In this document: one piece after another, positions 23,432 to 49,996 of the stretch
How positions within the stretch are numbered: position 1 is the stretch's first letter
Layout of the letters: each line of letters opens with the position of its first letter
Assembly: GCA_028714875.1 (NCBI GenBank)
Contig: JAQTLN010000024.1
Span: 1 to 61,355, forward strand
Source of the DNA: Gallionellaceae bacterium
Lineage (GTDB): Bacteria > Pseudomonadota > Gammaproteobacteria > Burkholderiales > Thiobacillaceae
Direction of reading: 5' to 3'
Length of the DNA: 61,355 nt
Position numbers and translations under genes: made by a program
Notes under the pieces: model-generated
Told to the model about the DNA's origin: nothing
The model's database searches: none
The model's input: the letters and a program-made list of their open reading frames with translations, nothing else

Positions 23432-24939
23432 TCCGCTTTATCGAGCATGGCGTCGAGCGCCGGCTTGTTGGCGGCCAGGAACTCGGCAAGCACGGCACTG
23501 GCCTTGTCCGCGTCGTTCTTGTCACGATAGGGGGTCGCGACGATGATCGCGGCGCCGCTGTCCTGGCCGCCGAGAAGCTTGGTCAAGGCCAGGCCGATCT
23601 TGGCGAGATAGGGGCTGACGCCATCCTCCCCCTTGATGCGGTGCCACTGCCAGGCCAGGATGCGCCGCTGCTCATTGCTGGTGAGCAGGCGTGCTTCATA
23701 GAGCGGCAGCGCCTGGCCGGAGACGTCTCGGGTCAGGGTATTGCGCCCCACTTGACGCCATTCGGGATGCTTCTGCCGAATCATGATGTTCTGGCTGTTG
23801 ATGAGTTCGGCGTTGTCGCGCTGGGTGCCGTACCAGGCCACGAACACCAAGACGCGCCGGTCGCCGTTCCGATAATTCTGGAAGCGCAGCACATCCATGC
23901 CATGCCATTGCGGCAGCCAGTCGGAGAACGCTTCCTGGCTGGTTTGCCAACCGCCGGTCGGGGTGGGCAGGGTTAACGCGGGCAGGGGGACCGGGCGGCT
24001 GGCAAGGTGCCCCTCGTAGATCGGAAATACCGCCAGCAGCAGCGCCAGGGCGGCCGCGTGCAGCGGGGCCGCGCGTATCGAGCCGGTGGCGGGAGGCGGG
24101 GCGGTTTCATCGAGATCCTCGCGCCAGAACAAACCCACCCAGAACATCACCAGCATGACGAGGCCGAACCACACCCAGCCGTAGATGAAATGGTCCACAC
24201 CCAGGGCTAGCTTCATGTCGGAGTAGTGGGCGATGAACACGATGATGGTGGCGCGCATGCCGTTGGCGAACACCGGCACGATCATCGCCGCGATGCTGAA
24301 GGCGACGCGCTTCCAGGGTGTGCGATAGGTCAGGTAAGCATAGAGCACGCCCAGGGTGATGGAAGCAATCAGATAGCGCAGTCCGGAACAGCCTTCCACC
24401 ACGTTCCATTCGCCTGTGGGCATGGTGAAGAAGGGGCCTTCGCGATACACCGGTATGCCGACCAGACGCACCGCGCCGACGGTAAAGTCGGCGGTGAAAC
24501 TGATCAGTGGCTGAATCAGCGCCTCGCCGTTGGGCACCATGAGCAGCAGGAAGCCGAGCGGGAACATGGCCGCGCGCAGCATCCTGAAGCCCAGCACCAG
24601 CCAGACCGTGGCGATCCAGAGCGCGACGAAGGCGTATTGCTCGACTACCAGCACGCCGCCCAGGCGCGCGGCCAGCCAGCCCAGGGCCAGCGGCACGATC
24701 ACCAGGAAGGCGCGCGTGTCGCCGGCCACCGGCACCGCCGCGAGGCGCTGCCGGTCGCGCCAGATCAGCCAGAGCGAGATGGGGAGGATGACAAAACCGT
24801 GGGCGTAGGTTTCCGAACGATCCCAGATGTCATACATGGACATGAAGGTCGGTTGCAGCAGCGCGGCGACCACCAGCCAGGCGAGAACCAGAAACAGCAG
24901 GGGCGGACCCCATTTCGGGGGGGGTGAGGGCAGCATCAT
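23428..24939 (-). CDS. xrtA: Exosortase A with EpsI domain
   Basis: A 503-residue fused protein. The N-terminal part (about residues 1-290) is a polytopic exosortase with the catalytic cysteine in EGCSGLRY near residue 183, the conserved arginine in NGMRATIIVFIAHYSD and the histidine region VDHFIYGWVWF. The C-terminal part (about 300-503) is an EpsI-type periplasmic domain (TGGWQTSQEAF, FVAWYGTQRDNAELI). Exosortase A cuts PEP-CTERM sorting signals and links proteins to the envelope or glycan. No PEP-CTERM substrate gene is in this window. It overlaps the preceding glycosyltransferase gene by four bases. Confidence 0.93.
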   Translation of the reverse strand: MMLPSPPPKWGPPLLFLVLAWLVVAALLQPTFMSMYDIWDRSETYAHGFVILPISLWLIWRDRQRLAAVPVAGDTRAFLVIVPLALGWLAARLGGVLVVEQYAFVALWIATVWLVLGFRMLRAAMFPLGFLLLMVPNGEALIQPLISFTADFTVGAVRLVGIPVYREGPFFTMPTGEWNVVEGCSGLRYLIASITLGVLYAYLTYRTPWKRVAFSIAAMIVPVFANGMRATIIVFIAHYSDMKLALGVDHFIYGWVWFGLVMLVMFWVGLFWREDLDETAPPPATGSIRAAPLHAAALALLLAVFPIYEGHLASRPVPLPALTLPTPTGGWQTSQEAFSDWLPQWHGMDVLRFQNYRNGDRRVLVFVAWYGTQRDNAELINSQNIMIRQKHPEWRQVGRNTLTRDVSGQALPLYEARLLTSNEQRRILAWQWHRIKGEDGVSPYLAKIGLALTKLLGGQDSGAAIIVATPYRDKNDADKASAVLAEFLAANKPALDAMLDKAE

Positions 24940-26225
24940 GTCTCCAGTAATCGGTCTACTCTGGCCAGGGCGCTATCCCAGGCGAAATCTTTCAATACAC
25001 GGGCACGCGCGGCCGGGCCCAGGTCGGGGCCGTCCAGCGCGGCCAGGGTCTCGCGCGCCAGCTCCGTCGTGGTCGCGGCGCGGCGCGCTTCCACACCGTC
25101 ACGCGCGTCGATGCCCTCCAACGCCTGCGGGGTCGCCACCACGGTGCGCGCCATCGCCATCCCCTCCAGCACCTTGTTCTGGATGCCGCGGGCGATGCGC
25201 AACGGCGCCACCACCACCCGCGCATGCGCCAGCCAGGGTCGCACATCCTCCACCCGGCCGCTGACCAGCACGCCGGGCAATGTTGCCAGAGCTTGCACCT
25301 GCGGCGGCGGCCGGCTGCCGACGATGGCGAACAGCAGGTTCGGGCGGGATTCCCGCAGCAGTGGCAATACCTCGCGCGCATACCAGTCGACGGCATCCAT
25401 GTTCGGCCAGTAATCCATCGCGCCGGTGAAGGCGATGGCTTCCACGCCGGCGGGATAGGGGTTGGCGTAAGTCCGTTCGGGCGAGTAATAGTCGGCATCG
25501 ACCCCGTTGTTGTAATAGCCGACGCGGGCCGCTGATTCCGGCGCCAGGGCGCGAAAATCGGCGGCCTCGGTTGCCGAAACGAACAGGCTGGCATCGAACG
25601 CGGATGCCACCTTGCGCTCCCACTCCAGCAGGCGCTCGCCTTCGCGCCGATACAGCCAGGACAGGGGCCAGGACTTGGTCGTCGCATACTGGCGCCACTT
25701 GTCCGAGTCGATGTCGACGAAATCCATCACCCGATGCGCTTGCTTGGCGTGCATGACAAAGCGCGCCATCGCCGAGGAATAGGTGAGTACCCGATCGACG
25801 CCGTCGCGCAGATGCGCGTCCACCCAGGCTTGCAGCCCGGCATGACGGTAATAGGGCAGGGTCAGCGGGGCGCCGCTAAGCAGACCGGTAAGCGCGCGCA
25901 GCTTGGCCAGACGCGGATTCAGTCCGGCGAAATAGGTCGAGGCGCAGACCGAGCGCACCTTGTCGCAATGCCGCCAGTCCTCGGGGTCATCCACGAAGGC
26001 CGCCAGATGCACCCGGTAGCGCCGCGACAGATGTTCCAGCAGATGCCAGGCGCGGATCTTGTCGCCCTTGTCCGGCGGGTAGGGAACACGGTGGGCAAGG
26101 AACAGGAGGTCGGGAAATTTCGGATTTCGGATTTCGGATTTCGGAGTTGCTCCACCCGCGGCTTGCGCGGTTGAATCGCCGAAATCCGAAATCCGAAATC
26201 CGAAATCGCCAGAATCCGAAATCAT
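24936..26225 (-). CDS. Exosortase A-associated glycosyltransferase with repeat-derived N-terminus
   Basis: A 429-residue glycosyltransferase. From PDLLFLAHRVPYPPDKGDK onward it resembles the family TIGR03087 (sugar transferase of the XrtA system), with C-terminal motifs AFTGAMDYWPNMDAV and APLRIARGIQNKVLEGMAM. In that family the LLFL.HR.PYPP segment lies at the very start. Here about 36 residues precede it, and they are encoded by an inverted array of 7-bp repeats (ISDSGDFGFRISDFG on one side, TPKSEIRNPKF on the other). The ATG at 26225 overlaps the FemAB stop (ATGA). A start farther upstream would lie inside femAB and is rejected. Confidence 0.85.
   Translation of the reverse strand: MISDSGDFGFRISDFGDSTAQAAGGATPKSEIRNPKFPDLLFLAHRVPYPPDKGDKIRAWHLLEHLSRRYRVHLAAFVDDPEDWRHCDKVRSVCASTYFAGLNPRLAKLRALTGLLSGAPLTLPYYRHAGLQAWVDAHLRDGVDRVLTYSSAMARFVMHAKQAHRVMDFVDIDSDKWRQYATTKSWPLSWLYRREGERLLEWERKVASAFDASLFVSATEAADFRALAPESAARVGYYNNGVDADYYSPERTYANPYPAGVEAIAFTGAMDYWPNMDAVDWYAREVLPLLRESRPNLLFAIVGSRPPPQVQALATLPGVLVSGRVEDVRPWLAHARVVVAPLRIARGIQNKVLEGMAMARTVVATPQALEGIDARDGVEARRAATTTELARETLAALDGPDLGPAARARVLKDFAWDSALARVDRLLET
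26117..26222. repeat. Inverted array of 7-bp repeats (ATTTCGG)n
   Basis: Four perfect ATTTCGG units occupy 26117-26144. A GC-rich centre that includes CCGCGGCTT follows, then four inverted units CCGAAAT at 26179-26206 and one more at 26216-26222. The array spans the border between the FemAB stop codon and the conserved start of the next protein, and is translated as its N-terminus. The array at 48657-48745 has the same plan with another heptad and the same CCGCGGCTT in its centre. Confidence 0.9.
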
Positions 26226-27253
26226 CCCAGTTGCCTGATGATGCGCGGGCCGATGAAGTTCGCCAGCGGCAGCGGCAGGTTTTGCCAGGCCTTGATGAAC
26301 AGCCGGTACTTGGGGTTGTTGGGGTTGTTCTGCGGCACGGCGGCGGCGCGCACCAGGTGGTAGCCGTAATGCACCGGCTGAGGCTCGAAACCCCAGTTGT
26401 GCTTGAAATCCCAGGAGCCGGTGCCTTTCTTGCTGCGGCCGAAATCGAACAGTCGGTAACCTCTTTCCACGGCCAGGCGCATCACTTCCCAGTACATGAA
26501 ATCGCTGCCGGCGAGCACGCGCGCGGCGGCGGTAATGCCGGCGAAATAGGGCCACACTTCATCGCGGTAGTAGAAGTTCATGACACAGCACACCACCCGC
26601 CCCTCCTGGGTGACGGTGACGATGTCGATGTCGTCGGCGAACTCTTCCAGCAGCAACACAAAGTAGCGCCGGGGGAAGACCGGCGTGCCCAGACGATGCC
26701 AGCTTTCGCAGAAGGCGGGGTAGAAGCGCTTGAGATCGCGGTCGATCTCACTCTTCAGCCCGGCCTTGATACCCTTGCGCACCATCGCGCGCTGCTTCCG
26801 TGGAATGGCCAGCAGGTTCTTTTCGACCTCGGGGTCGAGCGCCTTGCGGAACGTGGCATAGAGATCGGTGCCGGGCCACTCGGGATGCGCGAATGCATCG
26901 CGATCACGATATTCCAGGTGTCCCACGCCCAGTTGTTGCGCCAGTTCCCGCGCGGCCCGATCCAGCGCCTGTGCGGCTTCCTCGTTGTCCGCGACGATGC
27001 CGCCATAGACACTGAAGGGCATGGAAATCAGGGTATGGCCGAACAGGGCACTCTTGACCTCGCCCAGCGGCAGCACGCCTTCAATGCGGCCATCGCGCTC
27101 TGCCAACAGGAAATGACAGGGCTGCCTGAGCGATTCCTCGATCACCCGGCGCCAGCCGAAGCGATGGAAGAAGGTTCCGGCGGGCGCGCCCAGCACGTAG
27201 GCGTCCCAGGCGGCGGCGTCGGCGGCGGTGGCCGTTCTGATGGTCAGGCTCAT
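26222..27253 (-). CDS. FemAB-like protein of the exosortase A system
   Basis: A 343-residue protein with two GNAT-like halves of the FemAB type: WDAYVLGAPAGTFFHRFGW at the start, EKNLLAIPRKQRAMVRKG in the middle and a C-terminal section with YWEVMRLAVERGYRLFDFGRS. FemAB proteins transfer aminoacyl groups to amino sugars or peptides. The XrtA-linked subfamily (TIGR03019) presumably modifies the glycan. The ATG at 27253 was chosen over a TTG at 27271. Its stop overlaps the next ATG. Confidence 0.88.
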   Translation of the reverse strand: MSLTIRTATAADAAAWDAYVLGAPAGTFFHRFGWRRVIEESLRQPCHFLLAERDGRIEGVLPLGEVKSALFGHTLISMPFSVYGGIVADNEEAAQALDRAARELAQQLGVGHLEYRDRDAFAHPEWPGTDLYATFRKALDPEVEKNLLAIPRKQRAMVRKGIKAGLKSEIDRDLKRFYPAFCESWHRLGTPVFPRRYFVLLLEEFADDIDIVTVTQEGRVVCCVMNFYYRDEVWPYFAGITAAARVLAGSDFMYWEVMRLAVERGYRLFDFGRSKKGTGSWDFKHNWGFEPQPVHYGYHLVRAAAVPQNNPNNPKYRLFIKAWQNLPLPLANFIGPRIIRQLG

Positions 27254-48211: not shown

Positions 48212-48655
48212 TTAAAGATCCTTGATGACGTCACGGAAATCGTCCACGCCCTGAAACGAGCGATAGACCGAGGCAAAACGGATGTAGGCCACCTTGTCGA
48301 GACGGTAGAGCGCGTCCATCACCATCTCGCCCAGGGCGCGCGAGGGAATTTCCCGCTCGCCCAGCGTCAGCAGCTTCTGGCGGATGCGGGCGATGGCCTC
48401 GTCCACCAGTTCGGCCGATACCGGCCGCTTGTGCAACGCGCGGCGAAAGCCTTCACGCAGCTTGATTTCGGAAAACTCCTCGCGCATGCCGTTGCCCTTG
48501 ACCACCTGGGGCAGACGCACGTCGGCGTTTTCATAGGTGGTGAAGCGCTTGTCGCAACTGGCGCAGCGGCGCCGCCGACGCACCGAAAGGCCATCCTCGG
48601 CCAGCCGGGTCTCCACCACCTGCGTATCGGTGGCGCCGCAGAAGGGGCATCTCAT
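48212..48655 (-). CDS. nrdR: Ribonucleotide reductase repressor NrdR
   Basis: A 147-residue repressor with an N-terminal zinc ribbon ([17 protein letters not shown] and [12 protein letters not shown]) and an ATP-cone domain ([13 protein letters not shown] onward). It senses ATP/dATP and represses ribonucleotide reductase genes. The sequence before its ATG is an array of 7-bp repeats, and I see no ribosome binding site there (CACTCGCC directly before ATG). Confidence 0.96.
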
Positions 48656-48656
48656 G

Positions 48657-48745
48657 GCGAGTGGCGAAAAGCGAGTGCCGAGTGGTGAGTGCTGAGTGGC
48701 GAGTACCGCGGCTTCAACTCGCTACTCGGTACCCAGTACCCGTAC
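48657..48745. repeat. Inverted array of degenerate 7-bp repeats between glyA and nrdR
   Basis: Seven successive heptads occur on the left (GCGAGTG, GCGAAAA, GCGAGTG, CCGAGTG, GTGAGTG, CTGAGTG, GCGAGTA). A 12-base centre CCGCGGCTTCAA follows, then inverted heptads CTCGCTA, CTCGGTA, CCCAGTA, CCCGTAC. It runs from three bases past the glyA stop to one base before the nrdR start, so it makes up the whole spacer. The layout and CCGCGGCTT match the array at 26117-26222. Confidence 0.88.
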
Positions 48746-48748
48746 CTG

Positions 48749-49996
48749 TCACTTCCCATACACCGGGAACGCGGCATTCAATTTGGCCACTTCCGCTTTT
48801 ACCCTGGCCGCCACCGCTTCGTCGTTGGGCGCGTCGAGCACGTCGGCGACCAGGTGGGCCAGTTTCTCGGCTTCCAGTTCCTTGAAGCCGCGCGTGGTCA
48901 TGGCCGGGGTGCCGATGCGGATGCCGCTGGTGACGAAGGGCTTCTGCGGGTCGTTGGGGATGGCGTTCTTGTTCACCGTGATGTGGGCGCGGCCCAGCGC
49001 CGCTTCAGCGTCCTTGCCGGTGAGGTTCTTGGCTTGCAGGTCGACCAGGAAGACATGCGACTCGGTGCGCCCGGAGACGATGCGCAGACCACGTTCGGAC
49101 AGTACCTTGCACATCACCAGCGCGTTCGCCACCACCTGTTCCTGGTAGTGCTTGAACTCCTTGCCGGCGGCTTCCTTGAACGCGGTGGCCTTGCCGGCGA
49201 TCACGTGTTCCAGGGGGCCGCCTTGCAGGCCGGGGAAGATCGCGGAGTTGATCGCTTTCTCATGCTCCGCCTTCATCAAAATGATGCCGCCGCGCGGGCC
49301 GCGCAAAGTCTTGTGGGTGGTGGAGGTGACCACGTCGGCGTGCGGCACCGGGTTGGGGTAGACGCCGGCGGCGATGAGGCCGGCGTAATGCGCCATGTCC
49401 ACCATGAAGATGGCGCCGATTTCCTTGGCGATCTTGGCGAAGCGGGCGAAGTCGATGCGCAGCGAATAGGCGGAAGCGCCGGCGATGATCAGGCGCGGCT
49501 TGTGCTCGCGCGCGCGGGCTTCCATCGCGTCATAGTCGATGGCCTCCTTGGCGTCGAGGCCGTAGGCCACCACGTTGAACCACTTGCCGGACATGTTCAG
49601 CGCCATGCCGTGGGTGAGGTGGCCGCCTTCGGCCAGGCTCATGCCCATGATGGTGTCGCCAGGCTTGCAGAACGCCATCAGCACCGCCTGGTTGGCCTGT
49701 GAGCCCGAGTTGGCCTGCACGTTGGCGGCTTCCGCCCCGAACAGTTTCTTCACCCGGTCGATCGCCAGTTGCTCGACCACGTCCACCCACTCGCAGCCGC
49801 CGTAATAGCGCTTGCCGGGATAGCCCTCCGCGTACTTGTTGGTCAGCACCGAACCCTGCGCCTCCATGACGGCGGGGCTGGTGTAGTTTTCCGAGGCGAT
49901 GAGCTCGATGTGTTCTTCCTGGCGTTTGGCTTCGCCCTGAATGGCAAACCAGAGTTCGGGATCGGTGACGGCAAGGGTTTGGGAGGCGGAAAACAT
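48749..49996 (-). CDS. glyA: Serine hydroxymethyltransferase GlyA
   Basis: A 415-residue PLP enzyme that converts serine and tetrahydrofolate to glycine and methylenetetrahydrofolate. Family motifs are [35 protein letters not shown], the PLP lysine region [16 protein letters not shown] near residue 225-240, and [15 protein letters not shown]. It heads the minus-strand glyA-nrdR group and is divergent from the pseudouridine synthase gene, with a 132-base shared upstream region. Confidence 0.97.

Follow-up and report, generated by a model that had tools for sequence, protein, structure and literature searches.

Genes for the 23S rRNA intervening-sequence protein (IVP) are frequently enclosed by two convergent arms of tandem 7-base repeats, and this association extends to intervening sequences (IVSs) inside 23S rRNA genes in two replicons. 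Neither observation was part of the initial annotation of the DNA from which the analysis started, a 61,355-nt stretch of a Gallionellaceae bacterium (contig JAQTLN010000024.1; hereafter the window), whose two inverted heptad arrays at gene borders are likely bare members of the same class of element. The relevant features of the window are as follows.

24936–26225, minus strand: glycosyltransferase of the XrtA/PEP-CTERM system (TIGR03087), 429 aa; residues 1–39 lie outside the family model, ~36 of them derived from array and centre
26117–26148, no strand assigned: left arm, ATTTCGG ×4, G-rich arm read towards the centre
26149–26178, no strand assigned: GC-rich centre containing a smaller palindrome; genomes G011 and G006 have a similar centre at this junction
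26179–26223, no strand assigned: right arm, CCGAAAT ×4 plus degenerate units, met first by transcription of femAB and the glycosyltransferase gene
26222–27253, minus strand: FemAB family XrtA-associated protein (TIGR03019), its stop overlapping the glycosyltransferase ATG
48212–48655, minus strand: nrdR-like repressor gene, starting where the second array begins
48655–48704, no strand assigned: left arm of the second array, degenerate GAGTGGC-type heptad
48705–48715, no strand assigned: short centre of the second array with CCGCGGCTT, a chance resemblance to the first array
48716–48754, no strand assigned: right arm of the second array, overlapping the glyA stop
48749–49996, minus strand: glyA (serine hydroxymethyltransferase, SHMT), upstream of the second array

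At the femAB–glycosyltransferase border, TRF called 4.1 copies of ATTTCGG at 26117–26145 (100% matches, score 58) and ~6.1 copies of CCGAAAT with indels at 26179–26223 (score 65). As the initial annotation had stated, the inverted array fills the space between the femAB stop and the conserved start, the four ATTTCGG units, the GC-rich centre and the four CCGAAAT units with their degenerate neighbours reaching up to the glycosyltransferase core; correct, too, was the reported overlap of the glycosyltransferase ATG (26225–26223) with the femAB stop (TGA, 26224–26222), which on the minus strand read ATGA. Both flanking protein families, TIGR03087 and TIGR03019, are named for the XrtA/PEP-CTERM system. 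The two arms of this array had period-7 scores of 23 and 22, and the left arm of the second array scored 19, compared with 14 for the best single score in 60 second-order Markov copies of the window that served as chance control. A scan for 49-base periodicity reached its threshold neither in the window nor in the Markov copies.

Both window arrays are predicted to fold as long stems. For RNA from 26100–26240 the predicted energy is −67.4 kcal/mol with 28 pairs in one run, so that the complementary, stem-forming ends typical of an IVS are present in this array. A period of 7, convergent arms and a G-rich arm that comes first are traits it shares with two 23S elements (L381 and L382, see below), although these lie outside the published IVS definition. 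The window arrays also resemble the heptads of Xanthomonas and Nostoc in being tandem, intergenic and close to a stop or start codon; the G-tract of at least three per unit expected of a quadruplex former is absent, ATTTCGG containing only GG. The 30-nt centre of the femAB–glycosyltransferase array has no ORF, hence no IVP/S23p gene in its loop, and neither window array lies inside a 23S rRNA gene, both being located between protein genes.

The glycosyltransferase is present in 20 of the 23 genomes of the genus, and its junction with femAB was readable by motif in 19 of these 20 (not in G018). Ten array-free relatives possess a start codon 4–5 codons before the core LFLAHR, and G009 retained such a near-core start despite heptads upstream. 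Eight genomes (the source genome G000, G022, G011, G006, G017, G005, G008 and G003) lack ATG or GTG at this position, where G022 has TTG, and carry an in-frame ATG or GTG 14–40 codons upstream of the core; some TTG codons lie closer to the core in G022, G008, G017, G011 and G006. The sole in-frame start of the source genome is the ATG 40 codons before the core, overlapping the femAB stop, which results in 36 residues more than in the short form, and the NCBIfam model TIGR03087 begins at residue 40 of the protein. The earlier proposal that the array supplies the N-terminus of the enzyme, with ~36 extra residues, is thereby borne out. It had further been argued that the array keeps an open frame. 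The frame is indeed open, but since 69% of all heptads are stop-free in their 21-nt cycle, this alone is unremarkable. The distances from femAB stop to core in four ATTTCGG species (116, 107, 92 and 92 nt), all 2 mod 3 despite the 7-base unit, appear to be better evidence, though these species share ancestry and are not four independent cases. A search for the extension in relatives without heptads, suggested as a check, gave a divided answer: for the close relatives the link between extension and array holds, while in G005, G008 and G003 the extensions are shorter and the heptads degenerate or not clearly present. In G017, the same border harbors GGGGCAA heptads and their inverse, i.e. a unit other than ATTTCGG. 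At the level of sequence comparison, the old start codon has been lost at this border. The array would have erased the enzyme's own start, ribosomes now most likely initiate where femAB stops and translate the array, and one of the two window arrays is thus probably translated.

The second array had been placed near 48657–48745, with the same plan and another heptad, and is present at 48655–48754, where it fills the gap between the stop of glyA and the start of the nrdR-like gene. Both centres contain the 9-mer CCGCGGCTT, which had been taken to suggest one mechanism that builds such arrays, with the shared core as nucleator. We give this mechanism practically no credence: CCGCGGCTT has 51 copies in the genome versus 306 of the reversed control, it is absent from all 20 array places viewed in the genome, and the centres of relatives at the same border differ in sequence. 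The expected enrichment of the core between inverted heptads thus failed to appear, the match between the two centres is due to chance, and the nucleator was rejected. Of the idea that gene borders carry arrays of a single plan with exchangeable heptads, the general form stands, in that units differ between elements; the shared centre does not.

In the source genome, ATTTCGG arrays occupy at least 21 places, and the 14-mer ATTTCGGATTTCGG occurs 120 times (reversed control: 0). Manual reading of 16 fetched stretches, amounting to 20 array places, revealed 14 pairs in convergent order, one of them enclosing an ORF, and six single arms. Arrays are unevenly spread over the genome, as a 400-kb sample (N excluded) contained only one, a TTTACTG heptad run (L077:269–316, G000:C1). 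A single arm was also seen within the coding sequence of a CheA-like kinase (L254:8277–8329, i.e. G000:C1:241276–241328), shorter in G017 and not seen in G012. Among 101 genomes, 13 contained the 14-mer ATTTCGGATTTCGG, the source genome included, with G011, G012 and G017 ranking next in number, and two of 299 evenly drawn Pseudomonadota genomes (G000 and G175) contained ATTTCGG ×3. Convergent arm order was found in four of the 23 genus genomes with a slightly looser pattern and divergent order in none; viral contigs included five with the convergent hairpin and none with the divergent one (again with slightly different patterns). With hairpins in only these five viral contigs and no match in phage records for the one IVP searched there (L324), phages do not stand out as the main carrier.

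A scan of named genomes returned at least 116 stretches with ATTTCGG hairpins, of which 80 were examined. The groups named among the matches listed include Bacteroidetes, Acidobacteria, Planctomycetes, Chloroflexi, Nitrospirae, NC10/Methylomirabilota, Omnitrophica, Deltaproteobacteria and Betaproteobacteria. The 80 examined loci, selected for ATTTCGG hairpins and spanning 574 kb, contained 142 period-7 arrays, 50 of them with another dominant unit (some being ATTTCGG variants); other periods yielded five (period 6), 11 (period 8), 85 (period 14, an echo of 7) and 0–6 arrays (the rest). Their 115 hairpins with arms of at least 18 bases comprised 65 of period 7, six of period 8 and 44 without period, and the 5′ arm contained more G than C in all 65 period-7 hairpins (41 with ATTTCGG; 24 dominated by another unit, in some cases an ATTTCGG variant).

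At G000:C1:239303–239745, convergent ATTTCGG arms enclose a gene of the family PF05635/TIGR02436, encoding an IVP, and in the che element of G000 and G012 an IVP gene lies between two convergent ATTTCGG arms. At L254:6293–6685, the C-terminus of the IVP itself is encoded by a heptad arm (NPKSEIRNPK). A Pfam search, used in place of a home-made IVP profile that also caught heptad-encoded ORFs, identified 14 PF05635 hits in eight of the 23 genus genomes. Heptads, with about ten different units, flank all 14 of these genes on both sides. Beyond the genus, IVPs were present in 12 of 14 genomes chosen for ATTTCGG hairpins, in 52 of the 299 Pseudomonadota genomes (48 above the curated cut-off) and in none of 14 well-known control genomes. 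For the analysis of flanks, we fetched 30 of 79 hits from ATTTCGG-bearing genomes of other lineages and 30 of 81 from the Pseudomonadota sample, mostly the best-scoring ones, dropped one short-flanked element from each of these two sets, and added IVPs from ten of 28 plasmid records of our own choice. Both flanks were periodic (period-7 score of at least 11) in 14/14 genus elements, 13/29 from other lineages, 14/29 from the Pseudomonadota sample and 8/10 from plasmids, as opposed to 2/315 control pairs; a score of at least 13 on one flank was reached by 14, 19, 22 and nine elements, respectively, and by 19/315 controls. Over 146 IVP flanks, the mean period-7 score was 17.0 versus 5.0 in the control, with 90/146 versus 12/282 scoring 13 or more.

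The unit of these arms is seldom that of the bare hairpins: of the 30 loci taken from other lineages whose genomes bear ATTTCGG, only one (L316) had ATTTCGG-type arms in its best match, from which it follows that resident IVPs rarely share the unit. The array-rich genomes G011 and G017 gave no IVP hit, and G175 is not among the 52 IVP-bearing Pseudomonadota genomes, so that ATTTCGG ×3 and IVP co-occur in one of two genomes of that sample. By an ORF heuristic, the IVP gene was sense with both neighbors in 56 of 67 loci, antisense to both in none and mixed in 11 (seven were skipped); as three of eight annotated plasmid loci, L376 among them, had the IVP antisense to both neighbors and five sense, no sense rule is drawn. 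A resident reverse transcriptase was considered as a requirement and discarded, G020 and G010 having three and two IVPs without an RVT_1 hit (G000, G011, G012 and G017 have one to four RVT_1 hits). Two loci differ in setting or make-up: the heptad-armed IVP gene of L373, on an Anabaena plasmid, has cas6 on one side and cas4 on the other within a type I-D CRISPR locus, and the IVP gene of L307 has on its flanks no heptads but longer units, both direct and inverted, built around GGTGGTGACGGC.

Rfam searches of 31 IVP loci, of which 19 had been chosen largely because their arms were weak, located two within 23S rRNA genes, namely L381 from an Azospirillum lipoferum plasmid, with GAGGACG-type arms, and L382 from G024, a genome from the family to which the source genome belongs, with GGGATCA-type arms. 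L383, also from G024, is identical to L382 over 3283 bases; the identity covers a longer stretch that is itself 23S rRNA by Rfam, so the pair does not define the ends of the element. Two further IVPs of G024 showed no rRNA match. The heptad–IVP association thus includes IVSs of 23S rRNA in two replicons. That IVP loci without clear arms might lie within 23S rRNA was also considered, and none of the 19 did.

Arm units are matched within elements and differ between them. In 57 of 82 elements, the match between an element's own two arms exceeded the 99th percentile of swapped pairs, and the 5′ arm of these 57 had more G than C in 56 cases and equal numbers in one; the other 25 did not pass the matching test, several showing degenerate arms by eye and one, L307, carrying repeats of another kind. 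Between elements the units vary, while the period, the complementarity of the arms and the G-rich 5′ arm persist. For instance, the guaBA IVPs are related (75% between G016 and G020, 60% between G010 and G016), and their units, of GGTAGTC and GAGAGTC types, differ. At the rfb site, read manually from the flanks, the IVPs of G020 and G010 share 62% although their arm units differ, that of G009 being slightly closer to G020 (64%). Arm units are identical at dnaK–dnaJ (IVPs 100%) and che (92%). Period-8 arms accompany the IVP genes of L311, L309 and L379 (GTGCGATA, TTGGCGTA and GAGGGCAG). In related elements of G185 and G165, one copy has a 7-base TAGGCAG arm and another has one base added in one arm, with the opposite arm degenerate; in L387 and L391, the 8-base form fills one arm only.

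The 19 guaB–guaA loci offer a direct comparison of one border; 14 were viewed (three of them with another upstream gene), and five were not read by motif. An IVP element resides there in G016, G020 and G010; one-armed heptad runs without ORF in G008, G009 and G018 (period-7 scores 12, 13 and 10); and a terminator-like hairpin, by eye, in G000, G006, G022, G002, G004 and G007, the period-7 score being 3 in G000, G006 and G004. At site E in the che cluster, G017 has one unit versus two runs of four in G000, with no target duplication visible. Where G000 and G012 have the che IVP element, G017 carries another long inverted repeat (GTAGGTTGGGCAAAGCG type) beside remnants of ATTTCGG units (L256:13230–13420, G017:C84). 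Within the single array L033, few left units stand against 13 right units. Read together, these site comparisons suggest that arms are turned over and homogenised in place.

We consider it probable, with some reserve, that the window array is the bare stem, i.e. an ORF-less member or a scar, of an IVS-like stem-loop element. IVSs without an ORF exist, the IVP/S23p gene in the loop being optional. The full element would consist of two inverted arms of 7-base (sometimes 8-base) tandem repeats, G-rich arm first, and its loop would hold a gene for the four-helix-bundle protein (PF05635, IVP/S23p). Its locations would be protein-gene borders and, in some replicons, the interior of 23S rRNA genes, where the name IVS applies. 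For units that change under a constant period, complementarity and polarity, the simplest cause may be slippage combined with copying of one arm from the other. Bare arrays may descend from IVP-bearing forms, the elements may move and rewrite their arms, and RNase III may cut the stem in mRNA. At none of the sites compared was an IVP-bearing element caught turning into a bare array, the guaB–guaA runs being essentially one-armed. A wider reading, which we regard as possible and advance tentatively, is that IVP genes with heptad stems constitute a mobile stem-loop family that crosses phyla without a recognised transposase, with 23S IVSs as its best-known niche. Period 7, a G-rich strand in first place and free arm sequence would then be the signature of a copying machinery that belongs to the family itself, in which the IVP pentamer perhaps works on stem RNA or DNA ends, and many unexplained bacterial heptads would be bare stems.

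Heptads might also be microsatellites that arise on their own by polymerase slippage in 7-base steps, quasi-palindrome correction providing the second arm, and IVP genes using the hairpins as landing places or being carried along. Slippage tied to the polymerase footprint has been proposed before (Rehm 2015, PMC4692102), and the unequal arms of L033, the one unit versus two runs at site E, the base added to one arm among TAGGCAG relatives and the arrays of IVP-free G011 and G017 are what such a process would produce. Slippage alone, however, leaves unexplained the heptad arms at every IVP gene of the genus, their presence inside 23S rRNA, the polarity of 56 of the 57 arm-matched elements and the recurrence of one unit at many places of one genome and in many phyla, and we hold this account to be rather doubtful.

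Less probable still, and in our view improbable, is that the RNA stem itself is useful, serving between operon genes as a site of RNase III cleavage or as a stabilising element, with no common ancestry with IVSs. The window arrays do fill stop-to-start gaps between co-directional genes, their folded RNA is very stable, and RNase III cuts the stems of 23S IVSs (PMC4990558); yet selection for a stem needs no 7-base period, related species have the same border without an array or with a terminator-like hairpin, and one array lies within the CheA-like kinase coding sequence. Movement of the hairpins by a REP-associated (RAYT) or MITE-type transposase would account for dispersed short inverted repeats and for palindromic centres that recur across species. 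We deem it very improbable, given that no fixed terminal sequence accompanies the constant period and polarity and that site E shows no visible target duplication. Our preferred reading of the window array remains that of a bare IVS-like stem.

The closest known system is the 23S rRNA IVS with an S23p/IVP gene, known from Coxiella, Leptospira and others (PMC4990558), which has a complementary-end stem, S23p in the loop and heptameric repeats; for Coxiella, the paper describes a 28-bp stem, excision by RNase III and variable tandem heptameric repeats upstream of S23p. The Azospirillum and G024 elements, in 23S rRNA and with heptad arms, share this likeness, while the window arrays differ in lying between protein genes, having no ORF and, in one case, probably being translated, RNase III excision having been reported for 23S IVSs (PMC4990558). 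Rehm 2015 (PMC4692102) described GGGAATC and GGGGA(C/T)T heptads of Xanthomonas and Nostoc, intergenic and near stop or start codons; two Xanthomonas genomes contained 70 and 75 inverted pairs in convergent order. A single type of G-rich unit was read there as a quadruplex former, in contrast to the many units, many phyla and IVP link found here; the terms S23, 23S, four helix and intervening are absent from the text of that paper. MacGregor 2015 (PMC4679880) reported TAACTGA direct repeats in Beggiatoaceae, with one indirect repeat and thus unlike the inverted arms described here, and noted intergenic heptads common to distant phyla with no known mechanism; S23, 23S and intervening were not found in its text.

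The plasmid IVPs of filamentous cyanobacteria examined here have heptad arms. In this they recall the STRR heptanucleotides, the tandem heptads of these organisms. STRR is mentioned for Calothrix in PMC4692102, which reports few inverted pairs in Nostoc. PF05635 resembles Avd of diversity-generating retroelements (PMC10053308), systems from which the present elements differ in that IVP-bearing G020 and G010 are without an RVT_1 hit; in PMC5524665, four helix bundle proteins are merely listed in a table. Our literature search, conducted largely at title level, returned no statement tying intergenic heptads to IVP genes.

Intergenic heptads and 23S IVSs have both long been described, with their origin and function unsettled. 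The architecture they have in common, heptad arms with an IVP gene in the loop, joins the two and makes their location, their spread and the role of the four-helix protein testable. At the femAB–glycosyltransferase border, moreover, the loss of a start codon suggests how such a stem can turn into new protein sequence.
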